Part shown: positions 3,319 through 30,262 of the stretch, piece after piece
Numbering within the stretch: position 1 is the stretch's first letter
Layout of the letters: every line of letters begins with the position of its first letter
Source of the DNA: Flavobacterium piscisymbiosum
GTDB lineage: Bacteria > Bacteroidota > Bacteroidia > Flavobacteriales > Flavobacteriaceae
DNA: 64,000 nt
Direction of reading: 5' to 3'
Assembly: GCF_020905295.1 (NCBI RefSeq)
Contig: NZ_JAJJMM010000001.1
Span: forward strand, 4,402,001 to 4,466,000
Made by a program: the position numbers and the translations under genes
The notes under the pieces: model-generated
Database searches by the model: none
Told to the model about the DNA's origin: nothing
Seen by the model: only the letters and a program-made list of their open reading frames with translations

Positions 3319-5484
3319 TTATTTTTTCCCAGCTTCAACAAACTCTAATTCATCCAAACTTACTTTCGAAGTAAATATTCCGTAATTTACTGTTGCTTTA
3401 TTTTTTTCGATTGAATCGATACTTCCAACAGATCTTCCGTCGAGCATTCTTACTCTGTCACCAACTTTTAAAATTGGTTTTGGTTTTTCAATAACAGGCT
3501 TGAGTTTCTTCTCTTTTTTCTCTTTTCGAATTTCTTCAACCTGAACCGATACTTCTGCGATAACTTCTTTTTTCTTTTCGATTATTGCTTTGGCTTCTTT
3601 TGGAGTCGCTTTTTTACGTTTCGAATTTTCGATTTCTATGATTTTCAAAAATTCTCCAATAAGTTCTTTTTTGTTTTTATTGTTGAAATATTTCTCAGAT
3701 ATATCTTCAATTTTCTGGCCAATGTAAATTGTCTTTTGATTACTATCATATAATTCCTGATAGCTTTCTAATTTTTGTTTGATTTTTACATTGATGTTTT
3801 CCATCTTTTTGCTTTCTTCACGGGCTCGCGTTTCTTCTTCTTTCAAATTGATAGAAGTTTTTTCAAGCTTCGATCTTTCTTTCTGAAGTGTTGCAATAGT
3901 TTTATCAAAACGAACTTTACCAACTTCGATTTTCTTTTTGGCACGATTGATTAATCCAAACGGAATTCCGTTTTTCAGAGCTACTTCAAAAGTAAACGAA
4001 CTTCCGGCCTGACCTAAAGCCAGTTTATACATCGGTTCCAATGATTTTTCATCAAACATCATGTTCGCATTTGTTGCATACGGCAATTCGTTTGCGAGAA
4101 TTTTTAAATTCGAATAATGCGTTGTAATAATTCCGAAAGCTTCACGATGATAAAATTCTTCTAAGAAAATTTCAGCCAAAGCGCCACCTAATTCAGGATC
4201 AGAACCGGTACCGAATTCGTCAATTAAAAACATGGTTTTCTTGTTGCATTTCTTTAAGAAATAATTCATGTTTTTTAATCGGTAACTATAAGTACTCAAA
4301 TGATTTTCAATAGATTGATTGTCACCTATATCTGTTATAATTCTATCAAACAAAAAAGTTTCACTTCGTTCGTGAACCGGAATCAACATCCCTGATTGCA
4401 ACATCAATTGTAATAAACCAACCGTTTTAAGCGAAATTGTTTTTCCTCCCGCGTTTGGTCCGGAAATTACAATGATTCGGTTATCTTGTTTTAATTCAAT
4501 AGTTTGCGGATGCGTGATTTCGTTTTTTTGTTTGTTATTCAAATACAAAATGGGATGATACGCTTCTCTAAAAAACAATCTTCTTTCTTCGGTAATTGTT
4601 GGCAGGATTCCGTTGATTCTGTTGGCATATTTTGCTTTTCCGGCAACAACATCAATATCACTCAAAAATTCCTGATATTCAACTAATAAAGGTAAATATG
4701 GTCGAATTTGATTTGATAATTGTTTTAGAATTCTGGTAATTTCTTCTTTTTCCTCGTATTCAAGATTTGCTAATTCTCTGGAATATTGTAAAGTAGCTTC
4801 AGGTTCGATATAAGCGATACTTCCGGTTTTGGAACTTCCTAAAATCGAACCTTTTACCTTACGACGATACATTGCTAAAACGGCAAGCACTCTACGATTT
4901 TGGACAAAACTTTCTTTGATGTCATCTAAATAACCAAGACTATTATTATGAGAAAGTGCCACTCCAAAACTTTGGTTTACTTTACCGCGAACAATATTCA
5001 TATTTTGGCGAATGCTCAATAAAGCTGGTGAAGCATTGTCTTTGATTTCTCCGTATTTGTCTACAATAGCATCTATGAGAGTTACAATATCTTTAGTATA
5101 TTCAACTCTTGAAGCTCTTGCGTTTAAGTTTGGATAATAGTCATCAAACTTTTTAAGGAAATTCAACAAGAAATTTGCTGTTGATGAAAGTGTTGCAATT
5201 TTTCTAAAACTTCCTACTTCCAGGAAACTATCTTCAATGGCCAGAAATTTAATTTCGTGCGTTATGGCATCAAACCCATGATTGGGAATGGCGTTGTTAT
5301 TTTCAAAAGACGAAACATATTCTGATGTTTGCATCAAAGCCCGCATCAGAGTTTCTTTATCTCTAAACGGAGTTATTTGTAAAGCTTTTTCTTTTCCTAT
5401 ATCTGTATTACAGCCAGCCGAAATAGTTTCGAGCACTGTTGGAAATTGTAAATCTTGTAATGTTTTTTCGGTAATTGATATCAT
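3319..5484 (-). CDS. MutS2-like DNA-structure ATPase lacking a C-terminal Smr domain
   Basis: This 721-residue protein has the MutS2 layout: an N-terminal all-helical core, then the MutS ATPase with Walker A GPNAGGKT near residue 345 and Walker B FLIDEFGTGSDPE. A long charged coiled coil follows (about 515-660). The last 60 residues (VGDRVRMLDGRSVGSIDSI) form a small KOW-like beta domain. The usual Smr nuclease domain that follows in many MutS2 proteins (about 780 residues) is absent, because the stop follows the beta domain directly. MutS2 proteins act on branched DNA and, in some bacteria, on collided ribosomes. Without Smr any nuclease step would need another protein. Divergent from ung. 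Confidence 0.85.
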   Translation of the reverse strand: MISITEKTLQDLQFPTVLETISAGCNTDIGKEKALQITPFRDKETLMRALMQTSEYVSSFENNNAIPNHGFDAITHEIKFLAIEDSFLEVGSFRKIATLSSTANFLLNFLKKFDDYYPNLNARASRVEYTKDIVTLIDAIVDKYGEIKDNASPALLSIRQNMNIVRGKVNQSFGVALSHNNSLGYLDDIKESFVQNRRVLAVLAMYRRKVKGSILGSSKTGSIAYIEPEATLQYSRELANLEYEEKEEITRILKQLSNQIRPYLPLLVEYQEFLSDIDVVAGKAKYANRINGILPTITEERRLFFREAYHPILYLNNKQKNEITHPQTIELKQDNRIIVISGPNAGGKTISLKTVGLLQLMLQSGMLIPVHERSETFLFDRIITDIGDNQSIENHLSTYSYRLKNMNYFLKKCNKKTMFLIDEFGTGSDPELGGALAEIFLEEFYHREAFGIITTHYSNLKILANELPYATNANMMFDEKSLEPMYKLALGQAGSSFTFEVALKNGIPFGLINRAKKKIEVGKVRFDKTIATLQKERSKLEKTSINLKEEETRAREESKKMENINVKIKQKLESYQELYDSNQKTIYIGQKIEDISEKYFNNKNKKELIGEFLKIIEIENSKRKKATPKEAKAIIEKKKEVIAEVSVQVEEIRKEKKEKKLKPVIEKPKPILKVGDRVRMLDGRSVGSIDSIEKNKATVNYGIFTSKVSLDELEFVEAGKK

Positions 5485-19681: not shown

Positions 19682-20293
19682 ATGAAGACCAAAACTTTAC
19701 AATTCAAAACATTTGACGATATTACGCTTTGGAATAACTTGAAAGATGGAGATGAAAAATCATTCTCAATATTATTTGAGAAATATTATGGTGATTTAGT
19801 AAGCTACGGAAATTCGCTTTCTCCTTATGCTGAGAAAGTACAAGATTGTGTTCAGGATGTTTTTACGGATATTTGGGTATATCGCAACGGGCTGCAAAGT
19901 TCAGTAGTTGTAAAAGCTTATTTGTTATCAAGCGTACGTAAACGAATTGCCCGTTTGCATGAGCGTGATCATATTTTTCGTAAAGCAACGAGTACAGATT
20001 CTATAGCATTTCTTTTAGAATTTTCTGTTGAACATGATCTAATCGATGATGATTATGCAACAAAAGAAAAAGTTATTCATTTAAATAAATTATTAAACGA
20101 TTTACCTGCCCGCCAAAAAGAAGCTTTGTATTTACGCTATCATCAAGGTTTGACAGTAGACCAAATTGCAGACATGCTTGATGTTAATTATCAATCGGCA
20201 AGTAACTTGTTACATCGCGGTTTACTTACACTTCGTAAAGAATGGAAGGGTAGTATTTCATTAATCGTTGTACTATCTTCAATAGCTTGTTAA
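19682..20293 (+). CDS. ECF-type RNA polymerase sigma factor (FecI-like)
   Basis: This 203-residue sigma factor has region 2 (about 24-95), including FEKYYGDLVSYGNSL and QDCVQDVFTDIWVYR. Region 4 (about 138-190) has LPARQKEALYLRYHQGLTVDQIADML and LLHRGLLTLRKEW. These bind the -10 and -35 elements of target promoters. It is followed by a fecR gene and a SusC with an STN domain, the standard order of cell-surface signalling systems. It should therefore switch on the downstream uptake genes when ligand binds. The C-terminus ends in a short hydrophobic tail (SLIVVLSSIAC), which is unusual but of unknown meaning. Confidence 0.92.
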   Translation: MKTKTLQFKTFDDITLWNNLKDGDEKSFSILFEKYYGDLVSYGNSLSPYAEKVQDCVQDVFTDIWVYRNGLQSSVVVKAYLLSSVRKRIARLHERDHIFRKATSTDSIAFLLEFSVEHDLIDDDYATKEKVIHLNKLLNDLPARQKEALYLRYHQGLTVDQIADMLDVNYQSASNLLHRGLLTLRKEWKGSISLIVVLSSIAC

Positions 20294-20383: not shown

Positions 20384-21499
20384 ATGCAAAAACGTAATAA
20401 ATATACCGAAATTGAAGATTTTTTATCTGATGAATCATTCCAAGCCTGGATTTTATCAAAAGTTGATGAAGACGGTTGGGAAGAGTGGACGTTAGAAAGC
20501 CGTCAACGTGCCAAGTTAGTAGAGAATGCAAGATTACTACTATTGGCCATGAAAGTGGAGGATTCTAATCTATCAGCTTCAGATGTTCATAATGCTTTAC
20601 AAACTACATGGATTAAAATTGAGGAGAAAGAAAATCAAACCAATCTTAATCAAGACTCTAAAATAAGATTTCTTAGCAAAAGAATTCTTAGATCAGTTGC
20701 GGCTGCAGTAGTCATTTCCTTTTTATCAATTTGGTTTTATCAAAATCAGATTAGTCCAGAAAGTAAAGTTGTAACCTACAAAGAACTTATCGATGAAAAT
20801 AATGAAGGATTGGTAGAACAAACCAATAATTCAAACAAACCGCAAATCATCACATTATCTGATGGTAGTTCGGTTTTATTACAACCCAATAGTAAATTAA
20901 GTTATCCTAAAATCTTTACCGGCAACGAAAGAAAGGTGTATTTATCCGGCGAAGGTTTCTTTGAAATTAGTAAAAATCCTAAAAAGCCTTTTTTTGTTTA
21001 TGCAAACGAAATTGTTACAAAGGTAGTTGGAACCAGTTTTAGAGTAAAAGCTTATTCTGATCAGCCTGATGTGGAAGTTCTTGTGCGTACCGGTAAAGTT
21101 AGGGTAAAATCTAATGATTTAGTTTCTAAATCAAATCAGGAAGAAGTGGTTTTGCTTCCAAATCAAGCTTTACGTTTTTTACGAAGAGATTTGAGTTTTA
21201 ATAAAATTACAAACATTACTCAGGACGAAACCTTAACCCGAAGTGTTGGTAATATAGAGCAGTTAAGCTTTGAATTTACTGATATTCCTGTATCACAGAT
21301 TTTTAGAACAATAGAACAAGCGTATTTGGTTGATATTGATTATCCTAAAAATAAACTAAATGATTGTCACCTGACGACTTCACTCAGTGATCAGCCTTTA
21401 ACGGAGAAACTTAAAATTGTCTGTAATAGCATAGGCAATAATACCAGTTTTGAAATGAATGGAAATCAAATCATTATAACATCAGATGGATGTAATTAA
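20384..21499 (+). CDS. FecR-family anti-sigma factor
   Basis: This 371-residue inner-membrane regulator has a cytoplasmic N-terminal part (about 1-100) that would hold the sigma factor. A single membrane helix lies at about 105-125 (SVAAAVVISFLSIWFY). The periplasmic FecR domain includes IITLSDGSSVLLQPNSKLSYP and VYLSGEGFFEISKNPKKPFFVYAN. A C-terminal DUF4974-type region ends ITSDGCN and would meet the STN domain of the SusC partner. It starts 90 bp after the sigma gene. Confidence 0.93.
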   Translation: MQKRNKYTEIEDFLSDESFQAWILSKVDEDGWEEWTLESRQRAKLVENARLLLLAMKVEDSNLSASDVHNALQTTWIKIEEKENQTNLNQDSKIRFLSKRILRSVAAAVVISFLSIWFYQNQISPESKVVTYKELIDENNEGLVEQTNNSNKPQIITLSDGSSVLLQPNSKLSYPKIFTGNERKVYLSGEGFFEISKNPKKPFFVYANEIVTKVVGTSFRVKAYSDQPDVEVLVRTGKVRVKSNDLVSKSNQEEVVLLPNQALRFLRRDLSFNKITNITQDETLTRSVGNIEQLSFEFTDIPVSQIFRTIEQAYLVDIDYPKNKLNDCHLTTSLSDQPLTEKLKIVCNSIGNNTSFEMNGNQIIITSDGCN

Positions 21500-21740: not shown

Positions 21741-24700
21741 ATGAAAAAACCAGTTGTTAAACAACGATTACTCCATCGAATCATGAAAATAACACTATTT
21801 CAGTTTGTCTTGGCGCTTGTGTTTTCAAGTGTTGCAATGGCAAATGATGTAAGTGGACAAAAAAAACTAGATACCAAAGTCACTATAAATGTTGCTAATT
21901 TAACTTTAGACAATGCATTATCCAAGTTGGAAAAGTCTGCTCATGTAAAATTTTCGTACAACTCAAGATTGCCTCAGCTTACTCAAAAAGTAACTATAGA
22001 CGCAAATGAGGAAGTACTATCAAGTATTCTAAACAGAATCTTAATACCTTTTAATATTACTTATACTGAAGTAAGCAACCAGATTGTTTTGCAAAAAAAT
22101 GCAGCATCAGATTCTTTTGCAGGATTAGATGCAAGTAATTCTTTATTTGAAATATTAACTGCGGGACCAATCATTAAGGGTATTGTTACTGACGGTACTG
22201 GTAGCCCGTTACCTGGAGCTACTGTAATGGTAAAAGGAACAAAAAACGCAGTTCTTACCGATTTTGACGGAAGATTTACTATTGAAGTACCTAGCAACAG
22301 CGACAGACTTGTAATTTCTTATGTTGGAATGGAATCTAAAGAAATTGGAGTAGGAAACACTAATCCAACAATTGTTTTAAGTGAAGAAGGGCAAAACTTA
22401 AAAGAAGTGGTAGTTACAACAGGTTACGAAAAAACATCTAAAAGAACCTTTACAGGTGCGATCAGTAAAATTTCAGGTGCTGAATTAAAAGTTGACGGTG
22501 TTGTAGATGTAAGTAGAATGATCGAGGGTAAAGCCGCCGGGGTTACGGTACAAAATGTTACCGGATCTTTTGGTTCAACGCCTAAAATTACCGTACGTGG
22601 ATCTTCTTCAATTTTTGGAGACACAAAACCTTTATGGGTTATTGACGGAGTGGTTCAGGAAGATATTATTAATGTTTCTTTTGCTGATTTGGCTTCGGGT
22701 AATTCAGCAACATTATTAAGTTCTGCTGTAGCAGGATTAAATGCTAATGACATTCAAAGTATTGAAATTCTTAAAGATGCATCAGCTACTTCAATCTATG
22801 GTTCAAGATCATTAAACGGAGTTGTTGTTGTTACAACAAAACAAGGTCGTAGGGATTCTCCTCTAAAAGTAAGTTATTCTGTAGAAAATACAGTGAGAAC
22901 TGTCCCAAGTTACACACAATACGATATTTTAGATTCTCAGGAATCCATGAGTGTTTTTCAAGAAATGAGAGCCAAGGGGTACCTTACCCAAAGTTCATCA
23001 TTGACAGCTAGATTTAGTGGTGTATACGGTATTTTGGCTAAAGAAATTAATCGTTATAACGAATCAAATGGCCAATTTGGTGTTAGAAATGAGCAACCGA
23101 ATATCAATGAATTTTTGAAAAAATACGAATTAGCTAATACAGACTGGTTCAAAGTTTTATTTAGACCCTCTATTACACAAAATCACTCGTTAAGCTTTTC
23201 AGGTGGAGGAAAAAACAACTCCTTTTATGGCTCTTTAGGATATTACACAGATCCGGGATGGACTTTGGCGGATAATGTAAAACAATTGTCATCAAACTTA
23301 AAAGGTACATTTTATATCAACGACAGATTAAATATCACTTTGTCAACACTGGCTTCTGTTCGTGATCAGGAAGCTCCGGGTACTTATGAAAGTAAAAATG
23401 ACGTTGTATTCGGTAAAGTTACTAGAGATTTCGATATTAACCCGTTTAACTATGTGTTAAGTACCAGCAGAACATTGAGACCTTATGACGAAAATGGTAA
23501 TTATGAGTACTACCAAAACAATTGGGCTCCCATGAATATCTTAAAAGAATTGAAAAATAATACTATGGGGATAAAAGTGAACGATATTCGTTTTCAAGCA
23601 GACATAGATTATAAAATTAACAAACATTTAACGTACAACTTTACAGGTTCTGCCCGTTATGCGAATACATCAAGAGAGCACAAAATTTACGAAGGCTCAA
23701 ATGTAGTAGGGGCATACAATGCAGGAGTTGGAGCCACTTTGAATACTCAAATTCAAAAAGACAATGTATTCTTATATCAAAATCCAAATGATTTAACGGC
23801 ACCAAAAGTTTCAGTGTTGGAAAACGGAGGATTCTTGAGAAAATATACTAATGACATGACTTCATACAATGTTAGAAATAGTGTTACGTACAGAAATACA
23901 TTTAACGTTAAACATGAACTTGAAGGCTTCTTTGGTACAGAGTTTAGATCAGTAGACAGAAACAATGACAACTTTACGGCTGCAGGAATTCAATACGAAA
24001 AAGGGCTTACTGCTTTTGTTGATCCTAGATTAATCGAGAAATTGATAAATGAAGGTAATTCTTATTATGATTTTGGAGCAGAGAGAGAGCGTACAGTTGG
24101 TTTCTTTGGAAAAGTAGGATACACTTACGATCGTCGTTATACAGCATCTATTACAGGTCGTTATGACGGATCAAACAGACAAGGTGATACTGGTTCTTCA
24201 AGATGGTTGCCTACCTATACAGTAAGTGGAAAATGGAATGTAAAGGAAGAAAACTTCATGAAAAATGTTGAATCTGTTAATACCTTAGCACTTAGGGCTT
24301 CATACGGTTTAACAGCAACAGCAGGCCCTGCAACAAATTCATTAGCTATTTATAAAAGTTTTATTACAAACCGTTTTAATACTAGTGACAGAGAAAATGC
24401 GATCAGAATTGAAGATTTGCAAAATGGAGATTTGACATGGGAAAAACAATATGAAACTAATATTGGTTTAGATCTTGGAATGTTCAGAAACAGAGTTCAG
24501 TTAACTACAGATGTTTACAGACGTAAAGCATTTGATCTTATTGATTATGTAATTACATCTGGAGTTGGTGGGCAAAGTGTTAAACAGGGAAATAATGCCG
24601 ACATGGAAACTAAAGGTATTGAACTTGGTTTTACTACTCAAAATATTGTTTCAAAAGATTTTAAATGGTCTACCACATTGAATTTTTCTATTTACGATCA

Positions 24701-25457
24701 GAAAATTACAAAATTAGCCAATAAACCAGCTGTATTTGATTTAATCGCTGCAAATGGAGGAAATACTGTTGGGCATCCTAGAAATTCCTTGTATTCTTAT
24801 CAATTTACTGGATTAAACAATGAAGGATTACCAACTTTCAAATTGCAAGATGGTGCTGCCAATAATATAACAGAAGCTGATTTTCAGGATACAAATGATG
24901 TTATGAAGTATTTGAAATATGAAGGATCGGTTGAACCTAATAAATCTATTGGTTTTGCTAATACCTTTACTTATAAAAGTTGGTCACTATATGTTTTCGT
25001 AGTTGGATCTGGAGGAAATAAAATAAGATTAAACCCTGTTTACAGCAACAAATACACTGATCAGACTGTTTTTACAAAAGAATTTGCTAACAGATGGATC
25101 AATCCAGGTGATGAAAACACTACAAATGTTCCAGTCATTGCAGATCAGTTGGTGAATAGAAATTACGGAGAAAGAGACTTACAAATCGCGTATAATACTT
25201 ATAATTTTTCTGATGTAAGAATAGCAAGCGGTGATTTTGTGAGATTAAAGAATATTTCTCTTGGCTGGGAATTCCCAAGTGATTTTAAGAAAAAACTAGG
25301 AGTAAGCACTTTTAATTTGAAAGCATCAGCTGTTAACCCATGGTTAATTTATTCAGATAAAAACTTACACGGTCAGGATCCTGAGTTTCGTAATACAGGA
25401 GGGGTAGCTTTTCCTATTACATCACAATACACTTTTGCAATTAACCTTTCATTTTAA
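21741..25457 (+). CDS. SusC/RagA TonB-dependent outer-membrane transporter with STN signalling domain
   Basis: This 1,238-residue protein has a signal peptide (FQFVLALVFSSVAMANDVSG). An STN domain follows (about 45-125, LTLDNALSKLEKSAHVKFSYN), then a carboxypeptidase-regulatory-like domain (about 145-225, GIVTDGTGSPLPGATVMVKG). The plug (about 230-370) contains VVVTTGYEKTSKRTF and LWVIDGVVQEDI, and a 22-strand-type barrel ends in the terminal Phe (TFAINLSF). It would import a bound ligand together with the SusD lipoprotein using TonB energy, and signal through FecR. The ligand is unknown. The neighbouring metallohydrolase and the absence of glycoside hydrolases argue against a polysaccharide locus. 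Confidence 0.93.
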   Translation: MKKPVVKQRLLHRIMKITLFQFVLALVFSSVAMANDVSGQKKLDTKVTINVANLTLDNALSKLEKSAHVKFSYNSRLPQLTQKVTIDANEEVLSSILNRILIPFNITYTEVSNQIVLQKNAASDSFAGLDASNSLFEILTAGPIIKGIVTDGTGSPLPGATVMVKGTKNAVLTDFDGRFTIEVPSNSDRLVISYVGMESKEIGVGNTNPTIVLSEEGQNLKEVVVTTGYEKTSKRTFTGAISKISGAELKVDGVVDVSRMIEGKAAGVTVQNVTGSFGSTPKITVRGSSSIFGDTKPLWVIDGVVQEDIINVSFADLASGNSATLLSSAVAGLNANDIQSIEILKDASATSIYGSRSLNGVVVVTTKQGRRDSPLKVSYSVENTVRTVPSYTQYDILDSQESMSVFQEMRAKGYLTQSSSLTARFSGVYGILAKEINRYNESNGQFGVRNEQPNINEFLKKYELANTDWFKVLFRPSITQNHSLSFSGGGKNNSFYGSLGYYTDPGWTLADNVKQLSSNLKGTFYINDRLNITLSTLASVRDQEAPGTYESKNDVVFGKVTRDFDINPFNYVLSTSRTLRPYDENGNYEYYQNNWAPMNILKELKNNTMGIKVNDIRFQADIDYKINKHLTYNFTGSARYANTSREHKIYEGSNVVGAYNAGVGATLNTQIQKDNVFLYQNPNDLTAPKVSVLENGGFLRKYTNDMTSYNVRNSVTYRNTFNVKHELEGFFGTEFRSVDRNNDNFTAAGIQYEKGLTAFVDPRLIEKLINEGNSYYDFGAERERTVGFFGKVGYTYDRRYTASITGRYDGSNRQGDTGSSRWLPTYTVSGKWNVKEENFMKNVESVNTLALRASYGLTATAGPATNSLAIYKSFITNRFNTSDRENAIRIEDLQNGDLTWEKQYETNIGLDLGMFRNRVQLTTDVYRRKAFDLIDYVITSGVGGQSVKQGNNADMETKGIELGFTTQNIVSKDFKWSTTLNFSIYDQKITKLANKPAVFDLIAANGGNTVGHPRNSLYSYQFTGLNNEGLPTFKLQDGAANNITEADFQDTNDVMKYLKYEGSVEPNKSIGFANTFTYKSWSLYVFVVGSGGNKIRLNPVYSNKYTDQTVFTKEFANRWINPGDENTTNVPVIADQLVNRNYGERDLQIAYNTYNFSDVRIASGDFVRLKNISLGWEFPSDFKKKLGVSTFNLKASAVNPWLIYSDKNLHGQDPEFRNTGGVAFPITSQYTFAINLSF

Positions 25458-25471
25458 CAATAAAATTAATT

Positions 25472-26959
25472 ATGAAAAATATAAAAATAACACTGTCATT
25501 ATTAATACTTCTTGGTGTTAGCAGTTGTGACGAATTTCTTTCAGAAGTACCAGACAACCGAACCATGATAGATACACCTGAAAAAATATCTGAATTGTTG
25601 GTTTCGGCTTATCCTAACAACTCTTATTTTGCAATTGGAGAAGTGATGTCAGATAATGTTTTCGACACAGAATTAAAACAGGCTTCGAATCTAAATAACG
25701 ATCAGAGTTTTAACTGGGAAATGCACACTCAGATTGGATACGAAACTCAAAATGGATTTTGGACGGAATCGTATGCATCAATAGCGGCAGCAAATCAAGC
25801 TTTGGTTTCTATTGAAAAGCTAGGAAACCCTGCGAGTTTGAATCCTCAAAAAGGGGAAGCATTAATTGCTAGAGCTTACAATCACTTTATGCTGGTTTCT
25901 TTTTGGTCAAATCGTTACAATCCTGCTACAGCAGCAACGGATTTAGGTGTTCCTTACATTACTAAACCAGAAACTTCATTATTGGCTCAATATAAACGAA
26001 ATACTGTTAAGGAAGTTTTCGATCTTATAGAGCAGGACATTACAGAAGGTCTGAAATATGTAACCAATAATTATAAAGAACCTAAGTTTCATTTCAATGT
26101 TGAAGCGGCTAAAGCTTTTGCATGTCGTTTTTATTTAATAAAAGGTGATTGGGATAAAGTACTGGAATATTCTGAAGGGATCGGCTCTAAACCTACAAGA
26201 ATTAGAAACTGGACTGCTTTTAATGCAGTTCCTTTTGCTCTAATGTCTTTGGAATACTCTAAAGCAGAGCAAGAAACGAATTTATTGATCGATTACCCTA
26301 ATTCTATTGCAAATAGAGCAGGTTCTTACAGATTTGCTCTTGCAGGAAATAGATCAGATGAGATATTAGGAAATCAGACAAATATGTGGAACAAACCTAA
26401 TTTAATAAGAGCTCAGGGGCAGTATTATGGGGGCGTGATGGTTGTTGTTCCAAAACTTTATGAATATTTTAAAGTTACTAATATTACAGCAGGTATTGGA
26501 GAAGCTTTTACCGCTACCGTATTATTCAGTAATGATGAATTGTATCTGAATAGAATTGAAGCTTTAGTAATGAAAAATAGGATAGCAGAAGCTAATACAG
26601 AGTTAGGATTCTTTTTAGGGACCAGAACATCAGGATATAATGCTGCAACAGATTTAATGAATGAAACAGTTGTACAAGCCAAATATCCAGTAATTGCAAA
26701 CGAGTTTACCCCATTCTATGCCTTAACTCCTCTTCAGGCTTCTTATATAAAAGCTATAGCTGAAGCAAAAAGAAAAGATTTTATACGTGAAGGGCTTAGA
26801 TGGTTTGATATTAAACGATTTAATCTTGTTGTAACACACAATACTCTGGAGTTTGGTAAAATAATTCGTAATAACGTTTTAGAAAAAGACGATAAACGAA
26901 GAGCATTGCAGATCCCGCTTAGAGCTTCAGATAATGGTATTGAAAAAAATCCTAGATAA
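25472..26959 (+). CDS. SusD/RagB-family surface lipoprotein
   Basis: This 495-residue protein starts with a lipoprotein signal peptide ending LLGVSSC, with lipid Cys19. The SusD N-terminal helices (about 20-210) include ALIARAYNHFMLVSFWSNRYNP, the TPR-like scaffold of the family. The C-terminal RagB/SusD region includes LNRIEALVMKNRIAEANTEL and AKRKDFIREGLRWFDIKRF, the conserved end motif. It caps the SusC barrel and captures the ligand at the cell surface. Fourteen bases after susC, in one operon. Confidence 0.93.
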   Translation: MKNIKITLSLLILLGVSSCDEFLSEVPDNRTMIDTPEKISELLVSAYPNNSYFAIGEVMSDNVFDTELKQASNLNNDQSFNWEMHTQIGYETQNGFWTESYASIAAANQALVSIEKLGNPASLNPQKGEALIARAYNHFMLVSFWSNRYNPATAATDLGVPYITKPETSLLAQYKRNTVKEVFDLIEQDITEGLKYVTNNYKEPKFHFNVEAAKAFACRFYLIKGDWDKVLEYSEGIGSKPTRIRNWTAFNAVPFALMSLEYSKAEQETNLLIDYPNSIANRAGSYRFALAGNRSDEILGNQTNMWNKPNLIRAQGQYYGGVMVVVPKLYEYFKVTNITAGIGEAFTATVLFSNDELYLNRIEALVMKNRIAEANTELGFFLGTRTSGYNAATDLMNETVVQAKYPVIANEFTPFYALTPLQASYIKAIAEAKRKDFIREGLRWFDIKRFNLVVTHNTLEFGKIIRNNVLEKDDKRRALQIPLRASDNGIEKNPR

Positions 26960-26978: not shown

Positions 26979-27836
26979 ATGAAAATAGTAAAAACATATA
27001 AGGCAGCTTTAATAGCAGGAGTTTTGTTACTTGCTTCTTGTGCTCATGAAGACCAGCCAACAGAAAGCAGGTTAGATTTTTCGGTACCAACAAAAACTGA
27101 TTTAGATAAATGGATTAGTACGAATTTTCTGGATCTTTATAACATAAATGTATATTATGAATGGGATCAAAACACAGTCGATAATACCAGATATTTATTC
27201 CCGCCAAAAGTCGAAAAAGTGCAGCCAGCAATGGAGGTCGTAAAGAAAATTTGGATTGATAGTTATACAACTATTGGTGGAGTAAATTTTGTAAAAAAGA
27301 TAGCTCCCAGAGAGTTTGTTCTTGTTGGAGGTGTTAACTTAAATACAAACGGAACATTAACTTTAGGATTGGCAGAAGGTGGCCAAAGAATTACTCTTTT
27401 TCAAGTAGACAATCTAAATAAAAAGAGTAGAGCAAATGTTACACAATTTATTCATACTATTCAGCATGAATACGTTCATATCTTAAATCAGACTAAACCA
27501 TTTGATGAGCAGGCCTGGTCTAAATTAACTCCTGTGGGTTATACTTCAACATGGTACACAGAACCAATTGCGACTTCGAGAAATTTAGGTTTTGTAACAA
27601 GTTATGCAAGATTAAACATTTATGAAGATTTTGCTGAAACTGCTGCTGCAATATTAACGAGCTCAAAAGCTGAATATGATGCAATCCTGGCGAGTGTTAC
27701 AGATGCTACAGCTAAAGCAAATATTAAAGCAAAAGAGGCATTGGTCGTAAAATATTATAAAGATGCCTTTAATATAGATTTCTATGCATTAAGAGATCAA
27801 GCTCAAAAAAACACTGATGCCGTAGTAAATAACTAA
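26979..27836 (+). CDS. SusCD-associated zinc metallohydrolase lipoprotein (HExxH)
   Basis: This 285-residue lipoprotein has a signal peptide ending LLLASC (Cys21). The zinc motif is QHEYVHILNQ near residue 164. A downstream acidic segment, YEDFAETAAAIL near 213-224, could supply the third ligand. It matches the family described as substrate import-associated zinc metallohydrolase lipoproteins, which accompany SusC/SusD pairs. No activity has been deduced from sequence beyond the zinc site. A role in trimming a peptide or protein ligand at the surface is inference. Nineteen bases after the SusD gene. Confidence 0.82.
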   Translation: MKIVKTYKAALIAGVLLLASCAHEDQPTESRLDFSVPTKTDLDKWISTNFLDLYNINVYYEWDQNTVDNTRYLFPPKVEKVQPAMEVVKKIWIDSYTTIGGVNFVKKIAPREFVLVGGVNLNTNGTLTLGLAEGGQRITLFQVDNLNKKSRANVTQFIHTIQHEYVHILNQTKPFDEQAWSKLTPVGYTSTWYTEPIATSRNLGFVTSYARLNIYEDFAETAAAILTSSKAEYDAILASVTDATAKANIKAKEALVVKYYKDAFNIDFYALRDQAQKNTDAVVNN

Positions 27837-27865: not shown

Positions 27866-29248
27866 ATGAAAGCAATATATATATATAAGTATTTAATGAT
27901 TTCTTTTATAGCCTTACTTCTGGTGTCTTGTACAAGTACAGAAGTAGATGCTAAATTTGATCAAAATGCTACAGAAAGATTAAGTGCTCGTCAAAAAGAA
28001 TTAAACGACGTTTTACTTTCGTCTGCTGAAGGATGGAAAGCAGTCTATTACACAGATAGTACGCAATTAGGAGGCTGGACACATTTATTTAAATTTCTTC
28101 CAGAAGGAAAAGTAGATATGGCCTCTGATTTTACTTTAGGTACAGATACAGATACCAAAACCTACAGAAGTCAATATGAGATTCAAGCAGGAAGTACCGC
28201 AAGTTTAGTTTTTACAACAGGAAATAGAATTCATCTTTTGTCTGACGCTAATAACTATCCAACGTCGGCTCTTAAAGCAAAAGGGTATTTGGGAGATTTT
28301 CAGTTTTTTTATTATGGACAAAAAAATGGGGATATTATATTTAGAACCAATAGAAATGGGCATTTTCTTCGTTTTGTAAAAGCAACAGCGCAAGACTGGA
28401 CAGATTTACCCAAAAACACTCCAGTCATTGATGGTTTAAGAGGTAATGCAGCAAGTCCGTTGTTTAGAATAATGGAAACTAATGACGGAGTTGCAACACA
28501 TCAGTTTGATTTTGATTATAATCCGAATGCGCGTTTTGGTACGGCAACATCTTTAGATTTGGGTAGTCAAGAGGCTTATGATGTTGCATTTGCATTTACT
28601 CCGACTGGTGTTGTCTCAAAGCTTCCTGTAGTGGTTAAAGGGCAAAAATTAACAAATTTTTTATATGATAGTACTACTGCCAATTTTGTTGCCACAGGAA
28701 CAAATGGGGTTAGCGCAACGATTAAGTTCAGGAATGAACCAACTAGACTAACTGAAGACTACAAATTATTAATGCCACAAAGCGGTAATAATGTATATGC
28801 TTACATCTATAGTATAACAAAAGCTGAATCTGCAAATTCGGCTCTATTTCTATCTTTACTAGCGAGTACTGAAGCTGCTGCTGGTACAGGTTTATTTATT
28901 AATAGAATACAACCATGGTTTAATAATGCTGACGGAACAAGTTATATAGAGTATAGATTCTCTACTGTAGCAAATCCAACTGTTGTAGCAGCTAGAGTTT
29001 ATCATTATTTTACTATAAAGACAGATGCTACAGCTAAAACAGTTACTTTACAACCCGGTGTTTGGAAATCAACTGCGACTGCAGCTTCTCCAGCAATCGC
29101 TGCACCTGCATTTATGAAGGCGTTAGACGATCAATTTATGAATCCTAGTGGGCTTTATTTTGCCAGAACGCAAGTTTCGGGTTATACAGGTTATACATTA
29201 ACAAGTACAACAACCCCTTTTAGATTGGTTTTATACTCATTTCAATAA
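27866..29248 (+). CDS. DUF4302-like surface lipoprotein
   Basis: This 460-residue protein has a lipoprotein signal ending LLLVSC (Cys22). The mature part starts with a short helix (RLSARQKELNDVLLSSAEGWKAVYYTD) followed by beta-rich sequence to the end. It matches the DUF4302 proteins that occur with SusC/SusD and HExxH lipoproteins. The function is unknown; an accessory ligand-binding role at the outer surface is likely from its context. It is the last gene of the locus and is followed by two terminators. Confidence 0.75.
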   Translation: MKAIYIYKYLMISFIALLLVSCTSTEVDAKFDQNATERLSARQKELNDVLLSSAEGWKAVYYTDSTQLGGWTHLFKFLPEGKVDMASDFTLGTDTDTKTYRSQYEIQAGSTASLVFTTGNRIHLLSDANNYPTSALKAKGYLGDFQFFYYGQKNGDIIFRTNRNGHFLRFVKATAQDWTDLPKNTPVIDGLRGNAASPLFRIMETNDGVATHQFDFDYNPNARFGTATSLDLGSQEAYDVAFAFTPTGVVSKLPVVVKGQKLTNFLYDSTTANFVATGTNGVSATIKFRNEPTRLTEDYKLLMPQSGNNVYAYIYSITKAESANSALFLSLLASTEAAAGTGLFINRIQPWFNNADGTSYIEYRFSTVANPTVVAARVYHYFTIKTDATAKTVTLQPGVWKSTATAASPAIAAPAFMKALDDQFMNPSGLYFARTQVSGYTGYTLTSTTTPFRLVLYSFQ

Positions 29249-29264
29249 CATTTAAAAAAATAAG

Positions 29265-29293
29265 AAAGCAGTCCGTTTTGGACTGCTTTTTTA
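29265..29293 (+). terminator. first terminator after the SusCD locus
   Basis: AAAGCAGTCC and GGACTGCTTT form a perfect stem with a short T-rich loop and a T run. Confidence 0.88.
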
Positions 29294-29324: not shown

Positions 29325-29357
29325 AAAAGCAACTCATTTTTCGAGTTGCTTTTTTTG
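29325..29357 (+). terminator. second terminator after the SusCD locus
   Basis: AAAGCAACTC and GAGTTGCTTT form a stem followed by seven T residues, about 30 bp after the first terminator. This tightly insulates the downstream peptide genes. Confidence 0.88.
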
Positions 29358-29439
29358 TTTTACTTAATTGAGATAAAATCTTATAAAAATTTTTTTTAAT
29401 AGAAGTTTTTTCGTATTTTTATTCTGAAGATCAGGTGGT

Positions 29440-29447
29440 TATATTTG
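29440..29447 (+). promoter_or_regulatory. -7 promoter element upstream of the tandem peptide genes
   Basis: TATATTTG matches TAnnTTTG and lies 68 bp before the first peptide start, leaving a leader of about 60 nt. No convincing -33 element is seen. Confidence 0.55.
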
Positions 29448-29515
29448 ATTTTCTGTCTGAAACTCAACAGATAAAAAAGGATTGAGATACAAAAACATCA
29501 AACAATTTAAACACT

Positions 29516-29728
29516 ATGTTAAAAACAATTTTAAATTTTTCCGGAGTTAAAATGTTAAGTAAAGAGGAACAAATAAACATCCTAGGAAAAGGAGATTCTT
29601 ATCAAGTTCCCAGATGTGATCGTTATGCACCACCAGGCTCAAATCCTGTTGATTACCCACATTATCCATGTGCTGATCCGCAGCCAGATTGCAGGATTAC
29701 AATTGACGGCACTGTAATTTGCGGTTAA
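29516..29728 (+). CDS. small peptide precursor 1 with double-glycine-like leader
   Basis: The peptide has 70 residues. The leader MLKTILNFSGVKMLSKEEQ is nearly identical to that of the next gene. It is followed by INILGKGDSY, where the cleavage site would be GKG rather than a plain GG. The core is rich in Pro and has four Cys (RCDR, PCAD, DCRI, ICG). This layout is that of peptides exported by C39-type peptidase ABC transporters, or of Bacteroidota natural-product (RiPP) precursors. No exporter or modifying enzyme is in the window. It has its own promoter and is insulated upstream by two terminators. Function unknown. Confidence 0.75.
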   Translation: MLKTILNFSGVKMLSKEEQINILGKGDSYQVPRCDRYAPPGSNPVDYPHYPCADPQPDCRITIDGTVICG

Positions 29729-29790
29729 AACAAAGATTAAAAAATAAAAAAATAATTGAATACATATAAACATTAAACAACCTAATTATT

Positions 29791-30012
29791 ATGTTAAAAA
29801 CAATTTTAAATTTTGAAGGAGTTGAAGTTCTAAGCAGAGAAGAACAAAAGAGTTTAATTGGTGGTAGTTATCGCGGGCCAGATCAGCATATCTGCACAAC
29901 ACCTTGTGCAATGATTATTTCTCCAAATAATCCATGTTTTATAGATGGTTGCGAAACTATTCCTTTTCCGGATACAGACCCATTTGTAGGGCCTATTCAA
30001 ATTGTAGGATAA
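29791..30012 (+). CDS. small peptide precursor 2 with double-glycine leader
   Basis: The peptide has 73 residues. The leader MLKTILNFEGVEVLSREEQ ends SLIGG, a canonical double-glycine processing site. The core after it (about 47 residues) begins SYRGPDQ and carries four Cys (HICT, PCAM, PCFI, GCET) with many Pro and Gly. The first 24 coding bases are identical to those of the preceding gene, and the upstream sequence is similar too, so the pair arose by tandem duplication while the cores diverged. A terminator follows. Bacteriocin, signal or other secreted peptide are all possible. Confidence 0.75.
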   Translation: MLKTILNFEGVEVLSREEQKSLIGGSYRGPDQHICTTPCAMIISPNNPCFIDGCETIPFPDTDPFVGPIQIVG

Positions 30013-30040: not shown

Positions 30041-30070
30041 ACCAGTAGAAAATCACTACTGGTTTTTTTG
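30041..30070 (+). terminator. terminator after the peptide genes
   Basis: ACCAGTAG and CTACTGGT form a stem with a 7-base loop, followed by a T run. Confidence 0.85.
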
Positions 30071-30177: not shown

Positions 30178-30262
30178 CATTCATAGCCCTGATAGAAATG
30201 GAAATCCTTTTGTTTTTTTCTTTAAAAAACAAAAGATTGAAATGGATAGCAGGATTAGCTAC
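30178..30262 (-). repeat. dispersed hairpin element, copy A4 (inverted orientation)
   Basis: This reads CATAGCCCTGATAGAAATGG, then a CTTTTG..CAAAAG core, then GATAGCAGGATTAGCTA. It lies directly upstream of fabG, the only copy not between convergent genes. Confidence 0.75.

Follow-up and report, generated by a model that had tools for sequence, protein, structure and literature searches.

Two adjacent precursor-peptide genes of Flavobacterium piscisymbiosum, here called ORF1 and ORF2, are preceded by a compact H-type RNA pseudoknot, and the same element recurs before genes for peptides with comparable leaders at unlinked loci in Flavobacterium and related genera. The pair lies in a 64,000-nucleotide stretch of DNA (the window, C1:4402001-4466000 of a 6.49-Mb genome). 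Our preferred account, held as a whole with a confidence a little above even, is that a two-gene unit would yield two secreted peptides from an mRNA with this 32-nt pseudoknot at or near its 5' end. The peptide leaders would be recognised in trans by a C39-peptidase ABC transporter/HlyD pair encoded some 2.84 Mb away, which would cut at or near the Gly pair and export the core, while a VKOR-thioredoxin protein would form the disulfides of the four-Cys cores, possibly recruiting the precursors by their leaders. The cores would most likely act on competitors outside the cell in the bacteriocin-like manner of bacteroidetocins, and the pseudoknot would be a common cis-regulatory RNA setting translation or stability of unlinked precursor genes, which it would thereby join in one regulon. 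The features of the window that bear on this account are as follows.

19682..20293, + strand, ECF sigma factor of the neighbouring operon; any role in the peptide system is putative
20384..21499, + strand, FecR-type anti-sigma factor, from its domains
21741..25457, + strand, TonB-dependent receptor with STN domain, from its domains; we take it to be of the SusC type
25472..26959, + strand, SusD-type lipoprotein, from its domains
26979..27836, + strand, zinc metallohydrolase lipoprotein, from domain matches (PF15890, TIGR04549)
27866..29248, + strand, DUF4302 protein; its gene is the 5' neighbour of the peptide gene in each of the 20 locus-A genomes read
29325..29353, + strand, terminator-like hairpin in the gap between the DUF4302 gene and the peptide unit, from a terminator scan
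29440..29447, + strand, candidate -7 box TATATTTG, picked by eye on the consensus TAnnTTTG
29455..29486, + strand, H-type RNA pseudoknot of 32 nt, from sequence comparison, ending 29 nt before the first ATG
29516..29728, + strand, ORF1, 70-aa precursor peptide with a four-Cys core; leader 29516-29590, ending in GK
29791..30012, + strand, ORF2, 73-aa precursor peptide with a four-Cys core; leader 29791-29865, ending in GG
30041..30063, + strand, intrinsic-terminator-like hairpin 3' of ORF1/ORF2, from a terminator scan

A short-chain dehydrogenase gene, presumably fabG-like, lies downstream of the pair, and a Flavo-1 RNA (RF01705; window 30181-30260, 79.7 bits, E 8.9e-18) is found upstream of that gene.

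The sequence-only reading of this DNA had described ORF1 and ORF2 as small tandem genes with a common leader, and the description is borne out in its particulars: the two share a 25-aa leader (pattern MLKTILNFxGVxxLSxEEQ...G-G/K) and, in the DNA, their first 24 coding bases; there are four cysteines in each core, and the leader ends in GG in ORF2 and in GK (GKG) in ORF1. The same 24 start bases occur in five named records, all from Flavobacterium, and protein searches with ORF1 and ORF2 returned four and five clusters, respectively, with same-leader relatives in other species. Comparison of orthologues (ORF1 against L026, dN 0.031 and dS 0.229; ORF2 against L062, dN 0.186 and dS 0.642) marks both ORFs as real genes under purifying selection. 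The cores had been taken to be freely diversified, which the low dN/dS values and the recurrence of cores across species rule out; in our own grouping there are about four conserved types, CxIPWxP, WAPxG...YPNYPC, CTTPCAMIISP and DC.KGDGAVM. Cysteine numbers are even in 161 of 167 distinct peptides (four of these with none) and are mostly four or six, a pattern that fits disulfides, and the peptides are probably both exported and disulfide-bonded.

The leader end is less uniform. Read by eye, 25 locus-A peptides (those at the place of the window pair) end in GG 11 times, GK 7, GS 4 and GR 3; an automatic site pattern gives 9 GK/GR against these 10 of 25, with two sites read one residue early. 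A Gly followed by a basic residue, the arrangement in ORF1, departs from the normal C39 site. The pocket of the peptidase LahT narrows near the cut, which that study, in its consulted sections, says explains the small residues found there (PMC6363468). The leader of ORF2 bears a weak similarity to the leader families TIGR04149 and NF047798, under their cut-offs (13.2 bits against 25 and 10.2 against 23.5), and ORF1 matches neither. An rSAM-modified RiPP precursor of the TIGR04149 kind was accordingly set aside, there being no match over the cut-off in the own genome either. Searches of Pfam, PHROGs and solved structures gave nothing meaningful for the peptides beyond one below-cut-off match. 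For the earlier suggestion of a RiPP there is no sign of RiPP-type modification and no model match over cut-off, and the companion enzyme at the transporter locus is an oxidoreductase of the disulfide type. Class IIb bacteriocins, defined by two peptides that always occur together, were also considered and rejected, as pairs are exceptional: two intact peptides were seen in 4 of the 23 locus-A loci read (window, L022, L026 and L072), a count that omits L024, identical in sequence to L063, and the degenerate L080.

A profile built from 12 peptides matched at least 65 of 299 Flavobacterium genomes at E <= 0.001, many of the matches being precursors of other clusters, so that the homologous leaders predicted for other genomes exist and the reading of the pair as exported-peptide precursors with a common leader is supported. 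Locus counts from the peptide-profile, transporter and pseudoknot-model (R2) searches refer to the matches listed and fetched. Among the first twenty fetched profile matches, 19 stand at the place of the window pair (locus A) and one (L081) in a transporter cluster. At least 20 of the 299 genomes, the own genome included, have a locus-A peptide, of a type and number that vary between species; the copy in G218 (L080) is start-less and truncated, and L190, a second copy in G276, no longer has its ATG.

The genomic setting of locus A would suit another role for the peptides, as ligands of the adjacent sigma/FecR/SusC-SusD/metallohydrolase/DUF4302 system or as lures for it: once secreted, they would be sensed or taken up, as a species-specific autoinducer or a peptide chelator. 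The peptide follows the SusC/SusD/metallohydrolase/DUF4302 operon in all 20 locus-A genomes, across two chromosomal contexts (flanked by fabG, or by other genes without a fabG match in L072, L074 and L075); the SusC protein has an STN domain and sigma/FecR genes lie upstream; and core similarity correlates with metallohydrolase similarity (rho 0.38 over 19 loci, 0 of 500 permutations as high; 0.33 after SusC). However, the correlation of the cores with SusD and SusC is weak (rho 0.26 and 0.20; partial 0.18 and 0.08) and that with DUF4302 slight (rho 0.12; partial 0.03), and peptides of this kind, and the pseudoknot, are also present at transporter loci that showed no SusCD gene. Moreover, the metallohydrolase is present in 78 of 299 genomes (81 matches), and the peptide profile at E <= 1 found nothing in the 60 metallohydrolase loci fetched outside locus A (60 of 61 such matches, a partial match in G270 being left out). 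Because these 60 loci lack the peptide, it is an accessory of the operon's neighbourhood and not a constant part of it. We regard a ligand or lure as unlikely, if the least unlikely of the alternatives; the related idea of a SusCD pherotype was dropped on the mostly weak correlations. As an observation in its own right, similarity of the metallohydrolase (26979-27836) tracks core similarity more than the similarity of its neighbours does.

For the preferred account, in which the peptides are exported, the transporter has to be sought elsewhere in the genome. The sequence-only reading had noted no exporter nearby, which holds within the window, and had proposed reliance on a transporter encoded elsewhere; C39-type transporters are present in the same genome (four C39 matches, one below the cut-off), and one adjoins precursors with similar leaders. 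This locus, L027 (C1:1584650-1591597), lies 2.84 Mb from the window pair. Besides the C39-ABC transporter and an HlyD protein it encodes five Cys-rich precursors and a VKOR-thioredoxin protein, and the gene of an AraC-type TPR regulator precedes the cluster. Its precursors have the same kind of leader, the fifth (start MKKLKDLIG) being less alike, and an own-genome search with ORF2 returned ORF1 and then three peptides at C1:1586309-1586905 beside the transporter (E 0.005-0.05). The L027 C39-peptidase ABC transporter is thus the likely exporter of the window peptides. At least 119 of the 299 genomes, among them all 20 with locus A, have a relative of it, a co-occurrence confounded by kinship; within the 20, the genes of G276 and G284 look interrupted, and those of G218 and G279 meet contig ends. 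In 15 of 21 further precursor loci (L081-L101) VKOR, precursors, transporter and HlyD stand together, the transporter of L083 being in two pieces; one or more components are absent from L087, L094, L096, L097, L100 and L101, partly at contig ends.

Three further observations concern these clusters. The C39 domain of the L027 transporter (L027 10072-12303) lies upstream of the first ATG of its frame, and the start codon is therefore probably not ATG. Divergent from the VKOR gene, on the minus strand at L027 5426-6390, stand five GG-leader peptides in tandem that contain no Cys and have cores resembling DPSKGNGKGNG. The own genome also has a second copy of the C39 transporter/HlyD pair (L029, C1:2606000-2624000; transporter 95% identical), with a GG-leader peptide near it, and nearby genes resemble, on our assumption, lanthipeptide enzymes.

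The VKOR proteins carry CxxC motifs near positions 261 and 375 in 20 of 20 cases, shifted where the N-terminus is longer. The N-terminus of the own VKOR protein aligns with positions 46-132 of the 133-position C39 model at 18.8 bits, below the cut-off of 22, and its first 120 residues are free of Cys (one Cys there in 6 of 20 relatives), suggesting a non-peptidase domain that may recruit leaders.

As far as the consulted sections of PMC6671954 describe them, bacteroidetocins are Bacteroidota peptides made as GG-leader precursors and associated with an ABC transporter bearing a double-glycine peptidase; like the peptides here they have a GG leader, with four Cys in the two described first, and a thiol oxidoreductase gene in most regions. 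They differ in leader length (15 aa in PMC6671954 against 25 aa here), in that the transporter does not adjoin the window pair, and in that the Flavobacterium precursors often form arrays (18 in L086); the likeness is one of leader, Cys content and accompanying genes. Of the combination that marks such regions, a GG-leader precursor with at least two Cys together with a C39 ABC transporter, ORF2 has the leader and the cysteines, with its likely transporter 2.84 Mb off, and the L027 cluster has the whole. A Flavobacteriales strain appears in the same sections only as a non-susceptible test strain (PMC6671954). Because of this resemblance to bacteroidetocins, the peptide system is less undescribed than had been claimed.

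A second point of comparison is the AMS/PCAT C39 transporters and LahT, which, in the consulted sections of PMC6363468, likewise combine a conserved leader with diverse cores and serve many precursors with one transporter. Degenerate C39-like domains are proposed there as recruiters, similar to our reading of the VKOR N-terminus; here, however, such a domain is fused to VKOR-thioredoxin and not to the exporter. Also unlike LahT systems (PMC6363468), no lanthipeptide synthetase was seen at the window or at L027, and GK/GR site variants occur.

Transcription of the pair is outlined by less certain signals. Two terminators had been placed upstream; the hairpin at 29325-29353 stands, on the plus strand, whereas the inverted repeat at 29265-29289 scored as a terminator on the minus strand only. 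The 62-nt gap between ORF1 and ORF2 has no predicted terminator and so suggests that the two are co-transcribed. Of the promoter claimed for the pair, a box of the form TAnnTTTG, whose published position is -12 to -5 in the consulted sections of PMC9723704, can be picked out by eye, and from its position the transcript would start near 29452; against this, a sigma-70 scan of the plus strand from 29353 to 29516 listed no promoter (4 sites across the region against 6.7 in shuffled sequence, that is, fewer), and a loose TAnnTTTG box 13-16 nt upstream of the pseudoknot was present in only 5 of 54 elements.

The pseudoknot lies outside the interval given by the sequence-only reading (29516..30012). 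When 23 locus-A upstream DNAs were aligned, a block GTCTG-AAA-CTCAA-CAGAC-A-rich-TTGAG emerged some 60 nt before the ATG, with arms that pair crosswise, GTCTG with CAGAC and CTCAA with TTGAG; no such block was found upstream of the intact peptide of L074. In the window, stem 1 joins 29455-29459 (GTCTG) to 29468-29472 (CAGAT), stem 2 joins 29463-29467 (CTCAA) to 29482-29486 (TTGAG), an A-rich loop occupies 29473-29481, and an A/T-rich leader of 29 nt separates the element from the ORF1 start codon. Nested folding of this leader is no better than in shuffles (z 0.55), such folding being unable to model a knot. ORF2 has no strict pseudoknot upstream, and the single knot before ORF1 would therefore serve both genes if they are co-transcribed.

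Covariation was assessed in three sets of elements. In 22 locus-A elements (19 distinct), picked for their position and a first arm reading GTCTG or GTCTA, without regard to pairing, and omitting L074, L080 and L024 (same sequence as L063), 96.8% of cells are paired, and three pairs are changed on both sides against 0.7 in shuffles and 0 or 1 in slid registers; the four unpaired cells of pair 6-15 likely reflect one stem-1 base that MAFFT misplaced in L071, L073, L076 and L077. A larger set of 54 elements (the 56 strict-scan positives minus L087 and L094, unlike the motif) has 8 of 10 pairs changed on both sides over 86 cells and a covariation of 0.515 against 0.187 shuffled and at most 0.134 slid, although these elements were selected for pairing and the pairing count is therefore partly circular. 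The third set escapes this selection as regards stem 2: 29 held-out elements were found with a model pairing stem 1 only, and their unmodelled second stem is paired in 144 of 145 cells (129 Watson-Crick, 15 G-U and 1 A-C), a fraction of 0.993 that none of 5000 shuffles equalled (shuffle mean 0.906). Crossing helices with compensatory changes identify the element as an H-type pseudoknot, and the excess of G-U on the coding strand supports its acting as RNA. From the end of the element to the ATG the distance is 28.4 +/- 1.7 nt (54 elements).

Searched for as a pattern of its arm and loop letters, the element has a single match in the own genome; its wider distribution emerged from models of stem 1 alone. 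The first, R1, matched 42 of 299 genomes at E <= 0.5; among 30 loci fetched, 28 have an intact ORF of the GG-leader type starting 55-63 nt after the element start, and the other two are the start-less copy L190 and L192, without a peptide ORF. Peptide genes at unlinked loci are among the R1 matches, the transporter cluster L084 (G195) being one example. At E <= 1, R1 found nothing in the 60 operon loci without peptide. The second, R2, matched at least 69 of 299 genus genomes (E <= 0.05), 13 of 249 genomes in a family sample (E <= 0.05) and 12 of 236 in an order sample (E <= 0.01). Of 28 newly fetched genus loci, 27 precede an ORF with such a leader (that of L220 lacking the Gly pair), and L203 is cut by a contig end. 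In the family search 10 of the 17 matches, including three from the own genome, stand before such peptides, and the false ones (L223, L226-L229, L231 and L232) all have E >= 0.004; in the order search 13 of the 14 first-fetched rows (L237-L250) precede GG-type peptides, and the miss, L242, is in the only matching genome outside the family. Five genera besides Flavobacterium (g78, g143, g103, g19 and g131) thus have the element before such peptides, with new paired forms of the second stem in L222, L224, L225, L230, L235 and L250, for example CTTGA/TCAAG and CCCGG/TCGGG. The own genome has three model matches at two loci, all upstream of such peptides, G004 has 12 among the matches listed, and in L184 and L243 the element precedes peptides with other leaders.

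Loose pseudoknot criteria are passed by 605 of 1200 shuffled upstream stretches, and strict criteria were used afterwards because half of the shuffles pass. The strict scan is positive for 31 of 133 peptide genes that are neither at locus A nor motif-fetched. Its controls gave 63 positives among 6650 shuffles and 17 among 962 large ORFs from the same loci; 13 of the latter 17 lie outside -68 to -54. Locus A gives 17 of 25 and the motif-fetched loci 8 of 10, and the pooled 56 of 168 mixes in both locus A, where the motif was discovered, and the motif-fetched loci; a relaxed scan gives 109 of 168 against 241 of 1680 in its own control. Separately, a fully paired knot at L232 1501-1533, in another genus, stands 88 nt before a 481-aa ORF and is either a chance occurrence or a non-peptide user. 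Short palindromes, whose halves change together, are also seen about 3 nt before the knot (TCTTGCGCAAGA, TCCTGGCCAGGA, TCTTGATCAAGA, ACTTGGCCAAGT), at L091 about 5456-5467 (minus strand) and before elements in L084, L086, L097 and L191; they would be either an operator or a small extra hairpin.

The compact size of the knot recalls preQ1-I and SAM-II, the size class of compact pseudoknot riboswitches, and its A-rich third loop (consensus near TTAAAATGA) is kept while the stems vary, which would fit a ligand-binding, riboswitch-like element. The first loop is variable, however, and the downstream genes encode many kinds of secreted peptides and not one metabolic pathway. There is also no Rfam match: nothing exceeds the gathering score at the window element, where two snoRNA models overlap far below cut-off (E 1.7 and 1.8), and 16 elements from six loci gave nothing at E <= 1. 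With no covariance-model match at the element, an identity with preQ1-I, SAM-II or another Rfam cis-regulatory RNA was rejected, and a riboswitch-like element seems improbable, more so than the ligand or lure. Further down the scale is the proposal that the element acts as DNA, as two interleaved operator dyads for a transcription factor: its arms are inverted repeats, and at some locus-B genes another palindrome stands directly before it, but the dyads cross with the second arm abutting the first, the distance to the start codon is near-constant, and the unmodelled stem has 15 G-T against 1 A-C cells on the mRNA-like strand; we consider an operator quite improbable. That ORF1 and ORF2 are decaying copies or spurious ORFs is scarcely credible, for although decayed relatives exist (L080 in G218, L190 in G276), dN/dS lies below 1 and orthologues in several species keep their Cys.

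Under the preferred account of an RNA regulator, the near-constant distance would set the knot just upstream of the footprint of an initiating 30S subunit on the mRNA, and control of initiation is for that reason the simplest idea. The leader of phage T4 gene 32 has the same layout, with an unstructured stretch between the pseudoknot and the start codon; it serves one autogenous gene, whereas several genes are involved here. As reader of the knot, a trans-acting RNA-binding protein would be the first guess and a small ligand the second. No description of the pseudoknot was found in titles and abstract openings of open-licence papers. The element is not mentioned in the consulted sections of a 2010 motif paper (PMC2864571) or of a Flavobacterium psychrophilum transcriptome study (PMC9723704), which tabulates 64 structured 5' regions.

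With these peptides, the GG-leader, Cys-rich, C39-exported kind known from Bacteroidota comes to include large sets of core types in Flavobacterium, and the pseudoknot is a structured RNA that covaries strongly and has no match in Rfam. We put at about even the proposition that this H-type pseudoknot, some 28 nt before the start codon, represents a cis-regulatory RNA of a new class that would tie many secreted-peptide genes of Flavobacteriaceae into one post-transcriptional regulon under a common protein or ligand, and that would mark such genes whatever their leader type. The pseudoknot finds peptide genes through the mRNA leader rather than through their variable cores, and two matters become testable now: which short ORFs are secreted peptides, and how secreted peptides from separate loci are co-regulated.
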